This document shows positions 18,628 through 26,784 of a stretch of 26,784 nucleotides of DNA, piece by piece. Below the pieces are notes generated by a model. It ran no database searches, was not told the DNA's origin, and worked only from the letters and a program-made list of their open reading frames with translations. The stretch is taken from the IMG/VR virus record IMGVR_UViG_3300021139_001647, positions 1 to 26,784 of that record, one strand, 5' to 3'. Source of the DNA: a virus. The position numbers were made by a program, and so were the translations under genes. Each line of letters opens with the position of its first letter. Within the stretch, counting starts at the first letter, position 1.

Positions 18628-19369
18628 CTAAATCAAGATTTTGTAAATAGCCGAAAGGCGACTTTTCTGATATCGTTTTCAAGGTTTCAAGGTCTTTTAT
18701 GCCATGAGAGGCAAATGCGCCTCCTTTTATGGCGGCAATACACTCCTGGACACGAAACGGATGTCTAGCACAGGATATATTTTCCCAAGAATATGATAAT
18801 CCAGCCTCCAGGAGGTTGAAAACAGGGATTCCAGCCCTCTCTGATGCCATTCCGATGTACCGATCGGTATATCCATACTCGGCATCCCAGGGAGTCAATC
18901 TCTCCATTGAATCAGTGATCTTTTCAAGTGACTCCTTTGTATAGATCTGAGGGTAATGAAGGTAATAATTGGCTAGAAACTTCTTTCCAGGAACAGGGGA
19001 TACCGGTTCATTCATGAACTTGGTCGCCGATATCCATCCTTCTAAGGGGATTGCCCGATCTGGTATTGGTGCCCAACATAGGCTATCATATTCGAAAAGC
19101 ATCACATACTGATAATCTTTATAAGAATCCCTTGCCAGTTTCAGGCATTCATAGACTCTCATGTTTGTTTCCTTGGAATAAGAGCTTACATTATTCACCC
19201 TCTGGAATAGCTCGATCTCTGGATGCTTGATGTTAAGCTTATGTTCCAGAGGAGTCACTATAAGTAGACGCCCACAAGTCTTCAACCAATAAGGGATATG
19301 ACGAAGGACGGTATCCCTTACAGAGACATGTGCCATAACAATCCCTAGAACTTTAGATCTATCAAGCAT
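18623..19369 (-). CDS. Glycosyltransferase-like protein
   Basis: A 248-aa protein probably of GT-A fold. The N-terminal VLGIVMAHVSVRD strand-turn and the LLIVTPLEHKL strand precede YVMLFEYDSLCW (89-99), where EYDS occupies the place of a DxD-type metal motif. DAEYGYTDRYIG (162-173) and an HPFRVQECI segment follow. It may modify DNA bases, virion proteins or host surface sugars. I start it at the ATG at 19369, which overlaps the upstream glycosyltransferase stop by 8 bp (ATGCTTGA). A longer reading from 19453 would lie inside that gene. Family assignment is tentative. Confidence 0.6.
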   Translation of the reverse strand: MLDRSKVLGIVMAHVSVRDTVLRHIPYWLKTCGRLLIVTPLEHKLNIKHPEIELFQRVNNVSSYSKETNMRVYECLKLARDSYKDYQYVMLFEYDSLCWAPIPDRAIPLEGWISATKFMNEPVSPVPGKKFLANYYLHYPQIYTKESLEKITDSMERLTPWDAEYGYTDRYIGMASERAGIPVFNLLEAGLSYSWENISCARHPFRVQECIAAIKGGAFASHGIKDLETLKTISEKSPFGYLQNLDLV

Positions 19370-20120
19370 AATAATAGGCTTTATACTTGTGAGAGATTTC
19401 TCCTGATGGTTCTCTATGGGCATCCTTGACTCGATTCCATTTCTGAGGACCATGCTCGTGCAGGATATAAGTTTCGTTTGTATTCCTACCCCAGATGTAT
19501 GACCAGTTTAATTGTCTTGGGAGTTGAATGGCTCGATTCTGCTTCATGAGTATATGACCGACCATTGTCCAAGCGATCTGCTCAAGCATGGTGTTATTAT
19601 TTCTTTCCTTACAGAATCCATATTGGATCTCGTATAAGGAAGCAATGTCCTTTCGATCCTGAGAATTATCTGTTCCAAAATAAAGTACTCCGGCATTACA
19701 TTCTCGAACATACTCATTGAGTCCAGAGATCTGTCTCACGTTTGGATCATCGCCAATTCCAAATGCAACTTTTGGAAGACCCTCAATGATCCGAGTAGGA
19801 TCCTTGACGAAGAAAGCATCTGCATCGAGTATGATGCACCTTCCTAGAACTTGAATCGATTGACAAAGGAGAGTTCCTTTTATGTCAAAGTTCTTACCCT
19901 TTCGAACGATCGAGGGTATCGCATTTGTATAAAATCGAAGGTATGAGAGAGGAGCAGTTCCATCTTTCTCATAAGGTACTGCATCAGGAGGAACTGGAAC
20001 ATCCAAGTCGCAAATGATTACGACTCGGTATTTGCATCCGGATTTTTTATATTGTTCAATCCAGGCATTAAGAAGTGGTAAGAAAGCGGGATCCCCGAAG
20101 TGTGTAATTCCGATAATCAT
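19362..20120 (-). CDS. Glycosyltransferase-like protein with DxD motif
   Basis: A 252-aa protein resembling GT8-type glycosyltransferases. Features: N-terminal MIIGITHFGDPAFLPLL, YRVVIICDLDV, then CIILDADAFFVKDP with the DAD metal motif (D99, D101). The acceptor-side segment ECNAGVLYFG is typical of the family's NxGV region, and C-terminal LPRQLNWSYIWG and YILHEHGPQKW supply a His likely to bind metal. It probably transfers a sugar from an NDP-sugar; the acceptor is unknown. It overlaps the next glycosyltransferase-like gene by 8 bp and the previous gene by ATGA, so the three are co-translated. Confidence 0.75.
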   Translation of the reverse strand: MIIGITHFGDPAFLPLLNAWIEQYKKSGCKYRVVIICDLDVPVPPDAVPYEKDGTAPLSYLRFYTNAIPSIVRKGKNFDIKGTLLCQSIQVLGRCIILDADAFFVKDPTRIIEGLPKVAFGIGDDPNVRQISGLNEYVRECNAGVLYFGTDNSQDRKDIASLYEIQYGFCKERNNNTMLEQIAWTMVGHILMKQNRAIQLPRQLNWSYIWGRNTNETYILHEHGPQKWNRVKDAHREPSGEISHKYKAYYYA

Positions 20121-21031
20121 TCTGCAAATAATATAATTGGTGAAGATAAACTTTCGGCTTTGTACTGAAGACAGATACTCATGATATAGGTTTTTCCAGC
20201 TTCAACACAAATACAATCGTCTTTAAGAAGTGATATGTTTATGCCATATTTAGATATAGCTTCTGCTTTTAAATTTCTTATTGGCTCATGTACCATTACT
20301 TCAAATGGGTACTCGTCTCCTTTTGCAATCACATTCACGTATGGTGGATAAGCAATATCAGTATTCAACCACTCATCAATGATATGAGCTAAAAGTTTAT
20401 CAGATTTCATTCTGCTATAGCATTCAAACAAGTCATCACGAAGTTCATTCAAGAGCTTAGTTCCTATTTCGTTCGCTTGTTTCCGGATTCCTGGATTCAA
20501 TTTTAGATATTGCTTTCTCTTCTCAATTGATTCCGGAAGTCCTAATTTTTTAACAGCTTCTTTTGTCAATCTCAAAGCACTCTTCTCAAGATTCAGCTTG
20601 AGAATCTTATCAATACTTGAAAGAGTCTGATTCTTAAAAACGATTTCTTTTTTCTTTGTTGGTATATTACGAGTTGAGATACCGATGAATCCATTTGCAG
20701 GACCAGAAGTAAATTCAACTAATATGTTTGTAGGATTATCAGTATTTGGAATACCTTGTCCTATCACTTGATGGATCTCTGATATATTTGAAACCCAAAA
20801 AACACCCTTCACTGAACCAGAGTATCTATTTTTATAACACCATTTTAAGAACTCTTGAGCCATCTTTTCGGCTCTTCCAATACCAACTTCGGCTTCTTTA
20901 TTTGAAAGGCTAGCTATGGTTTTATTATATTTGGCTTGAGCCGCAGCTCCTACTTTTCCCCAATTTCGGTTCGCGAGTACGAAAGCAAGATGCAATTCAG
21001 ATACATGAGAAATAGGGGCATTGGTTGTCAT
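20117..21031 (-). CDS. Unrecognised 304-aa protein under a hairpin-buried start
   Basis: A 304-aa soluble protein I cannot assign. The N-terminal half has a helical segment (HVSELHLAFVLANRNWGK, then GRAEKMAQEFLKWCYKN), then beta-rich NILVEFTSGPANGFIGISTRN. The middle is basic and helical (EKSALRLTKEAVKKLGLPESIEKRKQ). The C-terminal part again has strands (PYVNVIAKGDEYPFEVMVHE). The beta region faintly recalls restriction-endonuclease-like folds, but no catalytic D/ExK is evident, so I do not claim that. Its start codon lies in the 3' arm of a 13-bp perfect hairpin. The stop overlaps the glycosyltransferase start (ATGA), suggesting a linked function. Confidence 0.6.
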   Translation of the reverse strand: MTTNAPISHVSELHLAFVLANRNWGKVGAAAQAKYNKTIASLSNKEAEVGIGRAEKMAQEFLKWCYKNRYSGSVKGVFWVSNISEIHQVIGQGIPNTDNPTNILVEFTSGPANGFIGISTRNIPTKKKEIVFKNQTLSSIDKILKLNLEKSALRLTKEAVKKLGLPESIEKRKQYLKLNPGIRKQANEIGTKLLNELRDDLFECYSRMKSDKLLAHIIDEWLNTDIAYPPYVNVIAKGDEYPFEVMVHEPIRNLKAEAISKYGINISLLKDDCICVEAGKTYIMSICLQYKAESLSSPIILFAE

Positions 21032-21060
21032 TTGGTCTTATTTATTCGACCAAATGACAA
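21025..21060 (-). promoter_or_regulatory. 13-bp hairpin over a start codon, with late-promoter-like loop
   Basis: TTGTCATTTGGTC (21025-21037) and its exact complement GACCAAATGACAA (21048-21060) form a 13-bp stem with a 10-nt loop; a one-base bulge would add further G-C pairs. On the minus strand the ATG of the 304-aa gene (21031-21029) lies in the 3' arm. The loop reads GAATAAATAA, containing AATAAATA, one base from the T4 late octamer. It fills the gap after the SprT-like gene. No U-run follows, so a terminator is unlikely. Confidence 0.6.
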
Positions 21061-21064
21061 ACCT

Positions 21065-21562
21065 TTACTTTCTTATATAGTCTGGATCATACTTGTTCCA
21101 GGAAGCATTCTTAAACTTCTTTTGCTGCGAGAATTTAGCATGAAGTCCTACTTCTCTACCATAAGCATCAAACTCCCATGGTAAATCGTAGTAGTCTATC
21201 TTTCGAGTATCGTATTTCTTTTTCTTCCAGACTATGACATGTAGGCTGCTCGTATCTCTTAATTCTCCGAGTACGTACTGCTTTACGTGAGCGCACTCAT
21301 GAGCAAGTGCGCGAAGCAACCCATGTATCTGCATACTGGCATCAATGTTTATTTCAAATTCTCTGGGTTCGTCCTCATCGTCTTCCCACATGACATCGGC
21401 ACGGCACCCGCATCTTTTGTAATAGTCCTTCCTTAACTTAATAACTAGCATCACCTCATAGTAATTATGAGGTAATAACTTTTTCAAATAAAAGCTGGCC
21501 GCTTCCGCGACCAGCTCTCTTTGAAGTTTTGATCCGCCTGAGACTGCTATCTCACTGTCCAT
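21065..21562 (-). CDS. SprT-like zinc metallopeptidase-fold protein
   Basis: A 165-aa protein of the SprT-like family. The zinc motif is HECAH (H88, E89, H92) in the helix LLRALAHECAHVKQYV. A third ligand may be supplied by a downstream Glu or His in the conserved segment DLPWEFDAYGREVGLH (about 126-141), which is typical of phage members. Eukaryotic SPRTN cleaves DNA-protein crosslinks; phage function is not known. I use the ATG at 21562, which overlaps the upstream gene end by 11 bp. A longer reading starts at a TTG (21604) and is less likely. Confidence 0.75.
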   Translation of the reverse strand: MDSEIAVSGGSKLQRELVAEAASFYLKKLLPHNYYEVMLVIKLRKDYYKRCGCRADVMWEDDEDEPREFEINIDASMQIHGLLRALAHECAHVKQYVLGELRDTSSLHVIVWKKKKYDTRKIDYYDLPWEFDAYGREVGLHAKFSQQKKFKNASWNKYDPDYIRK

Positions 21563-21758
21563 TGATGGCCGCAATTTTTCTGTCTTCGTCGGATAAAAGG
21601 GCAAAAAGTAAATTACTGCCTGAAAGCATCAATTCCACGAATGCTGCGTTATAACGGTGGTCAAAGGCATTATGAATGGCAAAGCCAATCATCATTCCTG
21701 ATGACATGTAACTAAGGCGATATAAGTAGTTTTCTGCGAATTTTACAAATCGGTTCAT
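21552..21758 (-). CDS. Small membrane-associated hypothetical protein
   Basis: A 68-aa protein with two hydrophobic stretches, SYMSSGMMIGFAIHNAF (about 16-32) and FVELMLSGSNLLFALL (about 40-55), followed by a charged tail (SDEDRKIAAINGQ). It is possibly a two-span small membrane protein of the sort phages use for host membrane modulation or holin-like roles. No specific family is recognised. It overlaps the SprT-like gene by 11 bp. Confidence 0.55.
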   Translation of the reverse strand: MNRFVKFAENYLYRLSYMSSGMMIGFAIHNAFDHRYNAAFVELMLSGSNLLFALLSDEDRKIAAINGQ

Positions 21759-21772
21759 ATAGTAGTAATAAT

Positions 21773-21976
21773 TTATTCTTCTAGTTTGTTGATGTAGTTG
21801 TCTGCGTTGTATTTAGTAATCTCTCTGGCCTCTTGCTCGATCTCTCGCTGAGAGACAGGGATTACTCCAAGAGCTATCGTTTCTTGCCTAGCTCCGAAAA
21901 GTTTTAATAATTTCTGAATAACTGCGGGTTTGTTTACCTTATATCTTCCATCTGGAAGAAGGGATAATAAATTCAT
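21773..21976 (-). CDS. Small hypothetical protein
   Basis: A 67-aa helical protein of unknown function (KPAVIQKLLKLFGARQETIAL, then REIEQEAREITKYNADNYINKL). It is the first gene after the structured RNA candidate at 22024-22116, with 47 nt between, so its expression may depend on that structure. The ATG at 21976 has no clear Shine-Dalgarno sequence. Confidence 0.55.
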   Translation of the reverse strand: MNLLSLLPDGRYKVNKPAVIQKLLKLFGARQETIALGVIPVSQREIEQEAREITKYNADNYINKLEE

Positions 21977-22023
21977 GAACTGTCACTCTAACAATTTGTT
22001 GACTGAAAAAGAACGAAAAAATA

Positions 22024-22116
22024 AGGGTCAAGCTGGTCAGGGGGTTTTTTATATCCGTAAGTTAGGTCAGTTATTGTCTTGTTTGTTGTTTAGTTGATCC
22101 TAACCAGCTCGACCCT
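22024..22116 (-). ncRNA. Long-stem structured RNA candidate
   Basis: Arms 22024-22041 and 22099-22116 are an 18-nt inverted repeat enclosing 57 nt. In minus-strand RNA all 18 positions pair, 16 Watson-Crick and two G-U; in plus-strand RNA the same two become A-C and C-A mismatches. A T-rich tract (TATTTTTTCG) follows the 3' arm on the minus strand. A loop segment (CCTAAC, from 22061-22066) could pair instead with GTTAGG in the 5' arm, giving an alternative fold. It may be a terminator with a large loop, a regulatory leader for the gene at 21976, or a small RNA. Confidence 0.5.
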
Positions 22117-22135
22117 AAAGTGAGAAAAAGGCGTA

Positions 22136-22282
22136 TTATTTCTTAATATTGCCTTTGATAGTATCTACTGCATTTTTGATGGTGTCTTCTGTGGCATTGA
22201 TTTCACCCTGGAGTTTGGTTCCAGAGAAATATCCTGCATAGAAAGAAATACCACAAAGAACTATGATAAAAAATAAGGTCAT
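22136..22282 (-). CDS. Hidden 48-aa single-pass membrane protein
   Basis: A 48-aa frame, ATG at 22282 to TAA at 22136. It begins with a hydrophobic helix (LFFIIVLCGISFYAGYF, about residues 3-19), followed by a hydrophilic helical tail (KLQGEINATEDTIKNAVDTI) ending in KK. The start overlaps the upstream stop as ATGA, the coupling signature used throughout this genome, which strongly supports translation. The function is unknown; small membrane proteins of this kind can be toxic or regulatory. The structured RNA starts 19 nt past its stop. Confidence 0.65.
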   Translation of the reverse strand: MTLFFIIVLCGISFYAGYFSGTKLQGEINATEDTIKNAVDTIKGNIKK

Positions 22283-22596
22283 TTTACGAATTGGTATAGT
22301 TGTGGATGTTTGCCACGAATACCAGGACGCTTTGGAGATTGTCCTAGATTCTTAGCGTTTTTCTTTACGTACTCGATAAGATACCAGTGACAAATACCAG
22401 TAGCTTCAAAAATCTGTTCGAAAGTAAATGGAGTCGTAGGAAAGTTAAACTTTTCAACGATTGCCACTGCTTCCGCCTTCTTCAAACCACGACGGTAAGA
22501 AGGAGTTTTAACTGGTTTTGAAGCTACAGCTGAAGTAGTTGTAGCTGGTTTAGCAGCTGCATGACCAGCTGCGATAGTTGTTGTTGACGATTGCAT
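22279..22596 (-). CDS. Small basic hypothetical protein
   Basis: A 105-aa protein with a low-complexity Ala/Thr/Ser-rich N-terminus (about 1-30) and a basic C-terminal domain. The C-terminal domain has a helix-turn-helix-like pattern (LKKAEAVAIVEKFNF, FTFEQIFEATGICHWYLIEYVKKN, then RPGIRGKHPQ). DNA binding is plausible from the second part, but no family is recognised. It is preceded by a 128-bp gap with promoter-like boxes and coupled by ATGA to the 48-aa membrane protein. Confidence 0.6.
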   Translation of the reverse strand: MQSSTTTIAAGHAAAKPATTTSAVASKPVKTPSYRRGLKKAEAVAIVEKFNFPTTPFTFEQIFEATGICHWYLIEYVKKNAKNLGQSPKRPGIRGKHPQLYQFVK

Positions 22597-22656
22597 ATAT
22601 TACTCTTATTGGTTATTATATTTGGTTAGGAGATTAATCCTTCACTGATAGTACAA

Positions 22657-22676
22657 AATATACTCAGATTTGTACA
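22657..22676 (-). promoter_or_regulatory. TGTACA-N8-TATATT element upstream of a small gene
   Basis: In the 128-bp gap before the gene at 22596, minus-strand TGTACA (22676-22671) is followed after 8 nt by TATATT (22662-22657), leaving about a 60-nt leader. The same pair with a 7-nt spacer occurs before the gene at 24840. GTACAAA and TTTGTAC around this site can also form a 7-bp stem. This may be a promoter with an activator site. Confidence 0.35.
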
Positions 22677-22724
22677 TTAAAAAAGGCAATCTTTAAATGT
22701 TATAAGTTATTGATTCCCAACGGC

Positions 22725-23417
22725 TTATGTCCAGAACATTTCTCGATTATCAATTATCCAACGACATAGCTTTGTGTCAGCATCTTTTAATTTCTTTTCT
22801 GCCTCTATAACATCTTTATAGACAACAAGATAAGGTCCATTGCTGTTTAGATCCACTAGATCATAGGCGATCGATAACTTTCTTACAAGTTCGGCTCTTC
22901 CAGTCTTTGCATAGTCATAATATTGCTTAATGAGTTTTGCCATCTTCTTGTGTTCTTTCGTGGAATCCCAATCAATGACCTCAAAGCATTTCTTACGCTC
23001 CACGAATTCAATCATACATTGAATATGGAAATTCATGATGATCTCAAATAGATCTGTTTTCTTTGGAGGAAATACGATATCTCTCATTTCCTTGTGAGGA
23101 TTAAAGAGCTTCAATTTTACATTATGAAAAGGCTTTGAGATCTTTTTGCAGATCTCATCTACAAAAGACCAAAAGGTATTACGAACAAAGTATTGAATTG
23201 GATAGTACTCTTTTACGTACTTATTGAACTTATCCCATTCGCTTTCCTTCTTAGACTTTTTCGTGTCGTATCTCATTGCAAACGGTTCTAGATATATCGG
23301 ACACGGCCAGAACCATACACGGGTTTCACGTTTATTGAAAGCTAGATTCAAATAAGAATCTAGTGTATCAACTGAAAAGTCATCAACTTGATATTTTGAA
23401 ACAAATTGTCTACGCAT
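22725..23417 (-). CDS. Conserved large-phage hypothetical protein
   Basis: A 230-aa protein with recognisable conserved blocks, FHNVKLKLFNPHKEMRDIVFPP (about 97-118) and DLFEIIMNFHIQCMIEFVE (about 122-140), then a Lys-rich helical region and a C-terminal RWIIDNREMFW. I believe I have seen this pattern in several unrelated large phages, but I cannot name a function. It overlaps the upstream gene by 8 bp. No membrane or cysteine motif is seen. Confidence 0.65.
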   Translation of the reverse strand: MRRQFVSKYQVDDFSVDTLDSYLNLAFNKRETRVWFWPCPIYLEPFAMRYDTKKSKKESEWDKFNKYVKEYYPIQYFVRNTFWSFVDEICKKISKPFHNVKLKLFNPHKEMRDIVFPPKKTDLFEIIMNFHIQCMIEFVERKKCFEVIDWDSTKEHKKMAKLIKQYYDYAKTGRAELVRKLSIAYDLVDLNSNGPYLVVYKDVIEAEKKLKDADTKLCRWIIDNREMFWT

Positions 23418-23952
23418 CTGTGGAATCTATTTCTTCTTGAATTGGTGTATAATCACTAGCATTCTTTTGTGCATATTCTGGATTTAGAACCTTGATCCAT
23501 CCATTATGGCTATGAAGAACTCCGACGGATCCTGTCATTTCACAGGTATGAATCGACATGGTCTCTGCCATGTGTACAATCCCGTTAAAATAACTCCTAT
23601 AACCATTTAGAATCTCTTGAGCCTTTTCAGGCCATTTCTGTATGATGATTTGAGTATTAGGGGTATACTCTTGATGGAAATAGAATCGAAGACTTCCATA
23701 CTTCTCTTTGACTTGATCTGCCACAATCTGAGGAGGATCTAATCGAATATAGTTGTTTTCAACTTCATCATGAACTACGAACCCAGTACTATACGTATTC
23801 TGTAATGCTTCGCAAAGTACATCTATAAGATGGTACCAACCGTCCTCACACTCAAATCCCCAGCACATAGCAGTTGTACGCGGATCTCCATTTCGATTCA
23901 CGAAGATCTTTGGGTACTTCTTGCAGAGTGAGGAATCGAGTTCAGGACTCAT
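23410..23952 (-). CDS. Conserved phage protein of unknown function
   Basis: A 180-aa protein whose blocks KKYPKIFVNRNGDPRTTAM, CWGFECEDGWYHLIDVLCEAL, VKEKYGSLRFYFHQ, HMAETMSIHTCEMTG and GWIKVL belong to a family common in phage genomes and sometimes in bacteria. Conserved Cys residues (CWGFEC and TCEMTG) might bind metal, although the second position of the usual C-terminal CxxC pair is Thr here, so a metal site may be incomplete. The function is unknown. It overlaps the following gene by 8 bp and starts shortly after a 97-aa gene. Confidence 0.7.
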   Translation of the reverse strand: MSPELDSSLCKKYPKIFVNRNGDPRTTAMCWGFECEDGWYHLIDVLCEALQNTYSTGFVVHDEVENNYIRLDPPQIVADQVKEKYGSLRFYFHQEYTPNTQIIIQKWPEKAQEILNGYRSYFNGIVHMAETMSIHTCEMTGSVGVLHSHNGWIKVLNPEYAQKNASDYTPIQEEIDSTDA

Positions 23953-23955
23953 GAA

Positions 23956-24249
23956 TTAGCTTTCTTGGTTTGAGGAACGTTGGTGTATGTCGTAGGGTTG
24001 AGCAAACCAATGGATTGTATCTGAGGACAATCTTTTATTTTCACGGTCTGACCAATTTGCACGTTCATTCGCAGTGGCATTTGCCTTTAATTGCGGTGCT
24101 GGACGTTGGTATTCGGTTATTCCTCTACAAGTTTTTACCATCTCGGTCATAGCTTTTACCTTTCTACGGTAATTGTATGAATCAAAAAGACGATAATGCT
24201 TAGGATTAAAGTCGAATTTAGGTTCTGAACTGATTTTATGTTTTTCCAT
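23956..24249 (-). CDS. Small hypothetical protein
   Basis: A 97-aa basic protein of unknown function. It contains FNPKHYRLFDSYNYRRK, then a Pro/Ala-rich segment (ITEYQRPAPQLKANATANE), and ends in charged Trp-containing residues. It sits between two better-conserved phage genes and starts 7 bp after the 194-aa gene, so it is probably co-transcribed. No motif is recognised. Confidence 0.6.
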   Translation of the reverse strand: MEKHKISSEPKFDFNPKHYRLFDSYNYRRKVKAMTEMVKTCRGITEYQRPAPQLKANATANERANWSDRENKRLSSDTIHWFAQPYDIHQRSSNQES

Positions 24250-24255
24250 GGTGTA

Positions 24256-24840
24256 TTATCTAGTTATTGTAAATGCTAAATCTTGAAATTTGTGTCCAAT
24301 ATAGATTAAAACGTTGGCGATTCTTTTTGTAACTATCCTGTATGGTCTGGTATTGAATAAGTACTTGTTCTTCCATTTCGCGTTCTCGATCTCTTGATCT
24401 CTCTTCCATCTCTCTAATGATTCTTTCCTGGGACCATTGTCTTCTGCGGTGAACTCTGCAAGTTTAACTTTTTTAAGTACGCCATTATTAAAGGTGAACA
24501 TCCACTCGCTGAAGCAATCCCACTTGTCATTGACGTCTCTCGTGTAGTCATATCCGAATACTTCACCTGTGAATTTTACTTTTTTTAAGTATTCACCATC
24601 GTGCTCGAGATGGCCTAGATCATCAAGAGGACTTTCCGACTTATCTTTTTCTGGAACTATCCATCTTGAGTTCTTATATCTTTTGACATAAAGCATCTTG
24701 TTTTTGATAACATAATTGCTCATTTCGTTGTCAAAGTCTTTCGTCTGGAGTTGCCAAGACTTCTTTTTATCAAGGTCTAGCAGACGCATCTCATCATTGA
24801 GAGGAAGCTTTTCAGCGTGTAAGTAGTCGAACATTCCCAT
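24256..24840 (-). CDS. Conserved phage protein with MGMFDYL N-terminus
   Basis: A 194-aa protein starting MGMFDYLHAEKLPL, followed by SWQLQTKDFDNEMSNYVIKN, a pattern common to many uncharacterised phage proteins (MGMFD...LPxP...FQTK). The body is beta-rich with acidic and Trp-containing segments. The C-terminal stretch (RIANVLIYIGHKFQDLAF) is mildly hydrophobic. The function is unknown. It is preceded by a sigma70-like promoter (TTTACA, 16 nt, TATATT) that lies within the end of the hidden 49-aa gene. Confidence 0.65.
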   Translation of the reverse strand: MGMFDYLHAEKLPLNDEMRLLDLDKKKSWQLQTKDFDNEMSNYVIKNKMLYVKRYKNSRWIVPEKDKSESPLDDLGHLEHDGEYLKKVKFTGEVFGYDYTRDVNDKWDCFSEWMFTFNNGVLKKVKLAEFTAEDNGPRKESLERWKRDQEIENAKWKNKYLFNTRPYRIVTKRIANVLIYIGHKFQDLAFTITR

Positions 24841-24860
24841 TGTAGTAATTTGTTGAGTTT

Positions 24861-24888
24861 AATATATCAAGTCTGTACAGATTGTAAA
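24861..24888 (-). promoter_or_regulatory. Sigma70-like promoter candidate before the MGMFDYL gene
   Basis: On the minus strand TTTACA (24888-24883), a 16-nt spacer holding TGTACA, and TATATT (24866-24861) fit an early promoter, with about a 15-20-nt leader before the ATG at 24840. It partly overlaps the end of the 49-aa gene. The -35 matches that of the rnh promoter candidate. Confidence 0.45.
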
Positions 24889-25016
24889 TCCGAAAGTACA
24901 TCAGATGAATTAAATAATTCATTTTGAATCTCTAATTCGAAGATTGGAATTGTCTTTTCGACGTATGGTTCGAATGCTTCAGAAATATCTGCAAAAGTCA
25001 TTTGTTTAGTTTTCAT
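24867..25016 (-). CDS. Hidden 49-aa acidic protein
   Basis: A 49-aa frame from the ATG at 25016 to the TGA at 24867, filling most of a 182-bp gap behind the helicase gene. It reads MKTKQMTFADISEAFEPYVE, then a helical acidic stretch (IPIFELEIQNELFNSSDVLSDLQSV). It begins 6 bp after the helicase stop. It is probably real given the packing of this genome and the clear protein-like composition. The function is unknown; such small acidic proteins can be regulators or DNA mimics. Confidence 0.55.
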   Translation of the reverse strand: MKTKQMTFADISEAFEPYVEKTIPIFELEIQNELFNSSDVLSDLQSVQT

Positions 25017-25022
25017 AAGTTA

Positions 25023-26393
25023 TTATTCTACTTGGAATCCTGCAAAGTTATGGTCTTTCTTTGGAGTGAATTTTGAATTTAAATTATCTTTCGTGAGTGT
25101 TTGAGCTTTATCTTCTACATCATATAACTTCATTTTTGCTCGATCTACGCCAATTACAAATCTCTTATTTTTAACAATATCATTGTAACGGTTCTTTAAT
25201 TGCTTTACCATGATTTGTCCCATCTTCTCAAGTTCTTCAGTTGAGATCAAAGCAAACATTAAATCAGCAGTCGCTGGAAGACCGAATGATTCAGATGTAT
25301 CAGTAAGTTCTACATCACTATTACCGAATCCAGATCTGGTTGTTTGCGTCGCAGAGAAGATAGGAACATCAAACTCTACAGCCAATCCTCTTATCTCCTC
25401 CGCGATCGCTTTTACCAATGAGTATGTATTTACGCCGCCACTAAGTCCTCGTATTCTTTCTGAGGAGCAAATATTTAAATAGTCAATAAAGATTACATCT
25501 GGAGCAAAGTCCTTCTTCAATTTTAATTCATTCAAGAGCGCTCTAAAATGGCCTGAATGAGCCGAAGCAGTTGGATATTCTTTAATGATAAGTTTTCCAG
25601 TGGTATTGGCTGCAATCTTTGTGATCTTATTGTCAAACATCTCACGAGGGAGTGTTTCTAATTGATCGATGGCAATATTCATTAGGTTTGCATCGATACG
25701 TTCTGCAATCCTTTCCTCAGACATTTCCATCGTGATATAAAGGACATTCTTTCCTTGTGATAAGGCAGAAGATGCAACATGACACATGAAGAGTGATTTA
25801 CCGACACCGGTTCCTGCAAGAGCAATATTAAGAGTCTTCTTTGGAACTCCTCCTTTTGTGATGGTATTAAATTTCTCTAGGTCGAATGGTAAACGATCCT
25901 CAACTTTATGATAGAAGTCAAACCGGTCATCTGCATCGATGATGTAATCATGACCGACACTATTATCAAAGTTAATGCTTAAAGCCTTCTGGAGAATATC
26001 AGGAATGGCGGTTTGAGTCTTTGTTTTACTCTTTCCATCAATAATTTGAATCGCTTCCATGATGGCTAGATACACTGCACGGTCCTTGCACCATTTTTCA
26101 GTATTTTCCTCTAACCATTTTTCCTCGACAACTGGATTCTCGTTTAAAGATTCGACAATCTTTACGGCCTGAGGATACGATTCCTCAGAAAGCTCTGCCC
26201 CATCTAACTCAATTGATAATGCAGTAGATGTCGGTAACTTATTATACTTCGAGATAAAATTAAGTATGATTCGATACACGGCTTTATGAGAGCCTTCGAA
26301 ATACTCTGTTTTAATGAAGGGTAGCACTTTCCTACAGAACTTTTCATCATTGATCAGCTTCTGTAAAATCGTTAATTGTAGGTTCGATACCAT
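25023..26393 (-). CDS. 41: T4 gp41-type replicative helicase
   Basis: A 456-aa replicative DNA helicase (hexameric, 5'-3', RecA/DnaB fold) matching T4 gp41 in length and motifs. The N-terminal domain (1-140) carries LPFIKTEYFEG. Walker A is GTGVGKS (194-200), YITMEMSEERIAERIDANL follows, Walker B is IFIDYLN (D304), then FSATQTTRSGFG and the SESFGLPATADLMFALI motif near 368-384. It drives the fork with a primase and a loader that are not in this window. The ATG at 26393 aligns with the gp41 N-terminus. It overlaps the upstream gene by 47 bp. Confidence 0.95.
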   Translation of the reverse strand: MVSNLQLTILQKLINDEKFCRKVLPFIKTEYFEGSHKAVYRIILNFISKYNKLPTSTALSIELDGAELSEESYPQAVKIVESLNENPVVEEKWLEENTEKWCKDRAVYLAIMEAIQIIDGKSKTKTQTAIPDILQKALSINFDNSVGHDYIIDADDRFDFYHKVEDRLPFDLEKFNTITKGGVPKKTLNIALAGTGVGKSLFMCHVASSALSQGKNVLYITMEMSEERIAERIDANLMNIAIDQLETLPREMFDNKITKIAANTTGKLIIKEYPTASAHSGHFRALLNELKLKKDFAPDVIFIDYLNICSSERIRGLSGGVNTYSLVKAIAEEIRGLAVEFDVPIFSATQTTRSGFGNSDVELTDTSESFGLPATADLMFALISTEELEKMGQIMVKQLKNRYNDIVKNKRFVIGVDRAKMKLYDVEDKAQTLTKDNLNSKFTPKKDHNFAGFQVE

Positions 26394-26724
26394 TTGATTT
26401 TTCTTGTGAGCCTAATTTATATTTGCCCGTGTCCAATGCGTTTTGAATAATATGACTTAATATATCTCCTAATAAGTTCTTAAACTCTGGAGTTTTCTCT
26501 AGCTTTTTCTTATTGTGCTTCTTAGGAGACTCGTTAATAACGAATTGAAATGAAAGAGTAGCACCATTGCCATCTTCATTGGTTTTTATTCCAACCTTAC
26601 CATAAGTGACGATTACATCTTTGTACTTGCCTTTTTTAATCTTCACTGAGTACATCAGTGAATCCGGCTTCTCTACAAAGTTGTAGTCGTCCTCAGTGAT
26701 TCGATTAATTCTCTTCGTCGTCAT
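26347..26724 (-). CDS. Conserved T4-related phage protein upstream of gp41
   Basis: A 125-aa protein starting MTTKRINRITEDDYNFVEKPDSLMYSV. It contains KIKKGKYKDVIVTYGKVGI and EFKNLLGDILSHIIQNAL. A similar protein lies between uvsX and gene 41 in T4-related cyanophages. The core is beta-rich, followed by a Lys-rich linker and a helix. It probably has an accessory role in replication or recombination, inferred from position. The ATG at 26724 is used; an upstream ATG at 26766 would overlap another gene further. The start overlaps the previous gene's end by 20 bp. Confidence 0.7.
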   Translation of the reverse strand: MTTKRINRITEDDYNFVEKPDSLMYSVKIKKGKYKDVIVTYGKVGIKTNEDGNGATLSFQFVINESPKKHNKKKLEKTPEFKNLLGDILSHIIQNALDTGKYKLGSQEKSNGIEPTINDFTEADQ

Positions 26725-26784
26725 CTTTAATAGAAGGTGTATCGGTATTGACTGCGCCCATTCCAAGCTTGTACTTGGAACGAA
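26705..26784 (-). CDS. 3' end of a gene cut by the window edge (possibly uvsX)
   Basis: The last 26 codons of a minus-strand gene: RSKYKLGMGAVNTDTPSIK followed by an acidic DDDEEN end and TAA at 26707-26705. An acidic C-terminus and the location just upstream of the gp41 partner suggest UvsX recombinase, as in T4-related gene orders. The fragment itself carries no diagnostic motif. It overlaps the next gene by 20 bp. Confidence 0.45.
   Translation of the reverse strand, partial: RSKYKLGMGAVNTDTPSIKDDDEEN

Follow-up and report, generated by a model that had tools for sequence, protein, structure and literature searches.

The loops of natural terminators are short, with a median of 4 nt in Term-seq data and a range of 3-13 nt accepted by TransTermHP (PMC12207403), and in a further survey more than 90% of terminator loops are shorter than 13 bases (PMC8355165). 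The stem-loop described here lies in a viral record of 26,784 bases, which was analyzed over its whole length and is referred to below as the window. It resembles the canonical intrinsic terminators of TransTermHP in its G+C-containing stem, the U-tract directly after it, its position on the coding strand and its location just past a stop codon, and it is unlike them in its loop, which measures 57-63 nt in the window and its close relative rather than 3-13 nt. Short-loop hairpins between p105/p48 and p67 in related loci (L059/L170, L138/L168 and L140-L166) share the gene neighborhood and strand of the window stem, and the hairpin of L059 also has its AGCUGG/CCAGCU core. These hairpins differ in having 4-11-nt loops, otherwise different stem sequences and, in some cases, less U-rich tails. 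Attenuators and riboswitch expression platforms, with their mutually exclusive terminator and antiterminator, offer a further parallel in that the loop contains a possible second partner for the 5′ arm, but this second fold is not above chance, and neither an Rfam match nor a recognizable aptamer or leader peptide is found. Judged from sequence, the stem-loop is quite probably an intrinsic (Rho-independent type) terminator with an expanded loop, marking the 3′ boundary of the p105-p48 unit in a T4-like phage.

The window is part of a T4-like phage genome, and every likely gene around the stem is encoded on the minus strand. It encodes a gp41-like DnaB helicase (PHROG 19), and its top DNA matches among phage records are the helicase genes of T4-like cyanophage and pelagiphage. 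The first gene of the upstream unit is p105 (22279-22596, minus strand), which is kept beside the hairpin in relatives. It is followed by p48 (22136-22282, minus strand), a predicted membrane protein of 48 aa that is 96% identical to its counterpart in L057 and whose stop codon lies 19 nt ahead of the stem. Downstream of the putative terminator lies p67 (21773-21976, minus strand), which is conserved in relatives, so that the stem sits between the 48-aa and 67-aa open reading frames exactly as the first-pass annotation had placed it. Protein queries with p67 against bacterial genomes, and with p67 and p105 against phage records, return no convincing relatives. Further downstream, positions 21065-21604 (minus strand) encode a 179-aa protein with a HECAH (HExxH-type) motif that belongs to PHROG 10499, of unknown function, and whose cyanophage match is annotated as a WLM protease domain protein.

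The sequence upstream of p105 contains a candidate sigma-70-like promoter for the p105-p48 unit, TGTACA-N17-TACTAT (22648-22676, minus strand), proposed from its consensus only, and L057 has TTTACA-N17-TACTAT at this site. A degenerate palindrome near 22714 precedes the candidate promoter in the window. The T4-type late promoter TATAAATA occurs twice in the window, which is the chance level, and neither copy is near the stem. No promoter was recognized between the hairpin and p67 on reading the window sequence, and p67 may therefore need read-through.

The stem is formed by a 5′ arm, AGGGUCGAGCUGGUUAGG (22099-22116, minus strand), and a 3′ arm, CCUGACCAGCUUGACCCU (22024-22041, minus strand), the latter carrying the CCAGCU part of the core common to the L059 hairpin, and folding places a 57-nt loop between them (22042-22098, minus strand). 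The minus strand continues directly past the stem with the T-rich tract TATTTTTTC, of which the U-tract UAUUUUUUC (22015-22023, minus strand) abuts the stem. An 18-bp stem completed on the minus strand by two G-U pairs, with a 57-nt loop and a T-rich tract after it, had been described in the first-pass annotation, and each of these features is borne out. Minus-strand RNA forms the complete set of 18 pairs, two of which are G-U, and the same two are A-C mismatches in plus-strand RNA. The minus-strand fold has a minimum free energy (MFE) of -32.1 kcal/mol, where shuffled sequences average -16.6 (z -5.1), and none of 200 shuffles is as good; the plus-strand fold of the stem region has a z of -2.5. 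A scan of both strands of the window for stems with loops of up to 100 nt and a U-rich tail ranks this stem as the strongest, at -34.3 kcal/mol, with -20.0 for the best of 16 shuffled strands. There is no further copy of a stem arm elsewhere in the window.

The loop consists of 30 A, 14 C, 9 U and 4 G, and folding leaves it essentially unstructured because of this A-rich, G-poor composition. In the folding model its penalty relative to a 4-nt loop is about 2 kcal/mol only. The loop has no counterpart in the rest of the window, nor among about 50 related loci, and its interpretation as a copy of another element was rejected on that basis. A coding function was likewise rejected, as indels of 6 and 2 nt between the window and its relative break the reading frame.

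The close relative is represented by two near-identical contigs (L003-L006, L057 and L058) that are identical over the stem-loop element. Its 5′ arm reads GGAUCGAGUUGGUUAGG, and its U-tract is kept as UUAUUUUUUUC. Despite seven substitutions in the arms, the relative keeps 17 of the 18 stem pairs, and none of these shared pairs is broken. Both sides have changed in pair 4 (G-C to A-U) and pair 10 (C-G to U-A), and one-sided changes interconvert Watson-Crick and G-U pairs at positions 7, 14 and 17. The sole pair lost is the outermost A-U, and an inner A-U is gained, so that the relative's stem is again 18 bp, with a loop of 63 nt by folding. The two wobbles of the window and the three of the relative are all G-U on the minus strand, where the plus strand would give mismatches. 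The check proposed for the homologous intergenic region thus yields paired substitutions, two of them double and three one-sided. Random placement of equal numbers of transitions in the arms leaves every pair intact in about 9% of trials, or in about 2% when two double changes are also required; for arbitrary substitutions these values are about 0.03% and 0.02%. Sliding the pairing by one to three columns lowers the share of paired cells from 97% to 22-53%. The compensated changes and strand-specific wobbles support RNA-level selection on the minus-strand helix, as first suggested from the window alone, with the modest statistical weight of two independent sequences. Scans of viral contigs for the exact 18-mer and a loop 16-mer return the known relative only, plus chance hits, and comparing the element with phage records at the DNA level gives one weak chance match only.

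Several properties expected of a terminator are present. The gene-strand transcript forms a stable stem (18 pairs, -32.1 kcal/mol, z -5.1), a U-tract lies immediately 3′ of it in both the window (UAUUUUUUC) and the relative, a same-strand gene ends just upstream, with 19 nt between the p48 stop codon and the stem, and pairing is maintained in evolution over two independent sequences. Against a terminator, a loop of 57 nt is far outside the natural range. Since the loops of the window (57 nt) and relative (63 nt) exceed the 3-13 nt limit of TransTermHP, the element is classed as a non-canonical long-loop variant and not as a canonical member. In the proposed mechanism, RNA polymerase would transcribe the 5′ arm, then the unstructured A-rich loop and then the 3′ arm of the minus-strand transcript. 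A 10-bp alternative hairpin may form first during transcription and would be displaced once about 13 nt of the 3′ arm appear. The 18-bp hairpin would then close while the U-tract is made, and release of the transcript at this tract would insulate the downstream p67. Both actual termination and its efficiency are matters that we infer from these features.

Loci with the order p105, hairpin and p67 were gathered via the helicase and via nine aligned p67 proteins. Of the 36 more distant p67 loci, 27 carry a stable hairpin between p105 and p67 with a loop of 4-11 nt, and among the nine that do not, four hold little upstream sequence. Clear U-tails follow the hairpins of L059/L170 (13 bp, loop of 7, tail TTTTATAG) and L138/L168 (17 bp, loop of 4, tail TTTTTTAA). 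Stable short-loop hairpins are also found in this interval in L148, L150, L151 and L165, and those of L139, L141/L146 and L147 are weaker or not clear. The tails of several distant hairpins are only moderately U-rich, which makes some orthologues unconvincing as terminators. Because most relatives carry a compact hairpin at the same site, termination is the best-supported of the roles initially proposed for the stem.

L059, the nearest of the short-loop loci, has a helicase 84% identical to that of the window and carries its hairpin after a small open reading frame laid out similarly to p48. A covariance model of the large-loop hairpin, searched against 622 kb (related loci plus the window), ranks the L059 hairpin as its top non-self match (21.4 bits, E 0.069), an E-value that is only suggestive on its own. 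In this alignment AGCUGG is matched with CCAGCU, and 59 loop positions of the model are skipped. Given this match and the identical gene position, the window and L059 hairpins are likely orthologous. Long-loop stems in L128 and L068 were dismissed as near the level of shuffles. As the long loop occurs only in the window and its close relative, lineage-specific loop expansion is the simplest reading; the large loop would be derived and not ancestral, having grown in the window's lineage from about 7 nt to 57-63 nt.

Other palindromic elements are found around these genes. An operator-like palindrome, which reads TTAAGTTGTTGGTAATCAACAACTTAA in L059, lies upstream of a sigma-70-like promoter before p105 (L059:10650-10690 and L057:11670-11700); the copies on the minus strand of the window near 22714 and 2820 are more degenerate than that of L059. 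In L140, L148, L151, L165 and L167 the hairpin between p105 and p67 has a near-constant loop, TAAGTTRTT, which is the palindrome's left half, and the stems differ, that of L167 being entirely different from the other four. The right half, ATCAACAACTTAGG, is located downstream in this group, ahead of the next gene's promoter, and in several members could pair with the hairpin loop region over 12-17 bp. At L061:14259-14320 and L166:2437-2501, a -10-like TACTAT or TAGTAT lies about 7-12 nt ahead of the p67 start codon, a short distance that suggests leaderless or very short-leader mRNAs in these two loci. Within the window, a 10-bp hairpin (21493-21516, minus strand; arms AGCTGGTCGC and GCGGCCAGCT, then TTTATTTG) sits in the start region of the 179-aa reading frame and has an arm sequence in common with the L059 terminator hairpin; scanning found no stem as strong at that place in L057 or L059.

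The loop invites the question of regulation. The stem could act as a conditional terminator, in which the 5′ arm pairs first with the loop segment CUGACCUAACU as an antiterminator, and formation of the 18-bp stem, governed by a ligand, a protein or a stalled ribosome, would control p67 and downstream genes. Positions 22061-22066 (CCUAAC) can indeed pair with GUUAGG of the 5′ arm, the best version being a 10-bp stem with one bulge that is present in both phages. This stem is the MFE fold of incomplete transcripts up to the point where about 13 nt of the 3′ arm have been made. The inner 5′ arm, which is used by both folds, is unchanged between the window and relative, and the lack of a recognized promoter from the hairpin to p67 would also fit such control. 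However, shuffling the loop gives a fold with the 5′ arm that equals or betters the natural one in 23% of cases for the window and 19% for the relative, and the full-length transcript favors the 18-bp stem by roughly 20 kcal/mol. Conservation of the loop does not exceed that of the noncoding DNA nearby (4/57 changes versus 1/66), Rfam yields no family match at gathering or permissive thresholds, with weak hits at chance level only, and the gapped pattern of the alternative fold is found among viral contigs only in the relative, plus chance hits. Compared with attenuators and riboswitches, the locus has neither an antiterminator that is stronger than chance and conserved nor a known aptamer or RNA family in Rfam. 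As shuffled loops equal the alternative fold, a regulatory switch is unsupported and the second fold was rejected as a conserved switch; what stands of the two exclusive folds in the first-pass annotation is that the pairing can form, and what does not is that it exceeds chance. A conditional terminator is thus unlikely. It is just as doubtful that the enlarged 57-63-nt loop made a constitutive terminator regulated, as an antiterminator or protein-binding platform governing read-through into p67 and the genes beyond it. The stem-loop might instead serve RNA processing or stability, or be a small RNA, with a double-strand RNase cutting the stem or the stem protecting a 3′ end, and with its loop bound by a host RNA-binding protein. 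A 3′ end that is protected or protein-bound would likewise be consistent with a long stem, an A-rich unstructured loop and a U-tail, and no result here separates such a role from termination, but relatives carry compact, U-tailed hairpins at this position, which favor a plain terminator, and the loop is without relatives, which leaves this role quite unlikely.

The substitution pattern in the arms raises an explanation at the level of DNA. Template switching in replication can copy the sequence of one arm into the other in one step and so yield compensatory changes (PMC8794818), and an inverted repeat could keep its complementarity by such quasipalindrome correction without selection on RNA. 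The arms differ between the window and relative at 7 of 36 positions, compared with 12 of 695 in the rest of 21552-22282 (Fisher p 1.3e-5) and 0 of 204 in the p67 gene, indicating that they evolved faster than their surroundings with pairing nonetheless kept. The outer 12 shared pairs of the relative are all Watson-Crick, as one switch would leave, and some of the compensatory changes could stem from such an event. Template switching is not the whole story because G-U pairs persist in both phages; correction would not leave five wobble cells that are all G-U on the same strand. It also leaves unexplained the U-tract and the hairpins with different stem sequences at the same place in relatives, and is very unlikely as the full account. 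As a separate observation, identity to the relative over 19000-26784 is strongly mosaic (compared with L005/L057), at about 98-100% over p67 and p68 and 56-72% in the 304-aa gene just downstream (20117-21031), which points to recombination.

With the long-loop terminator as the preferred reading, the stem is a small, clear case of an RNA helix that changes fast yet is compensated within nearly identical DNA. Terminator finders limit the loop to about 13 nt and so would miss the window's hairpin. The orthologue pair, with loops of 7 and 57 nt, provides a natural test of the effect of loop length on termination. If long-loop hairpins do terminate transcription, phage and bacterial terminators would be under-counted.
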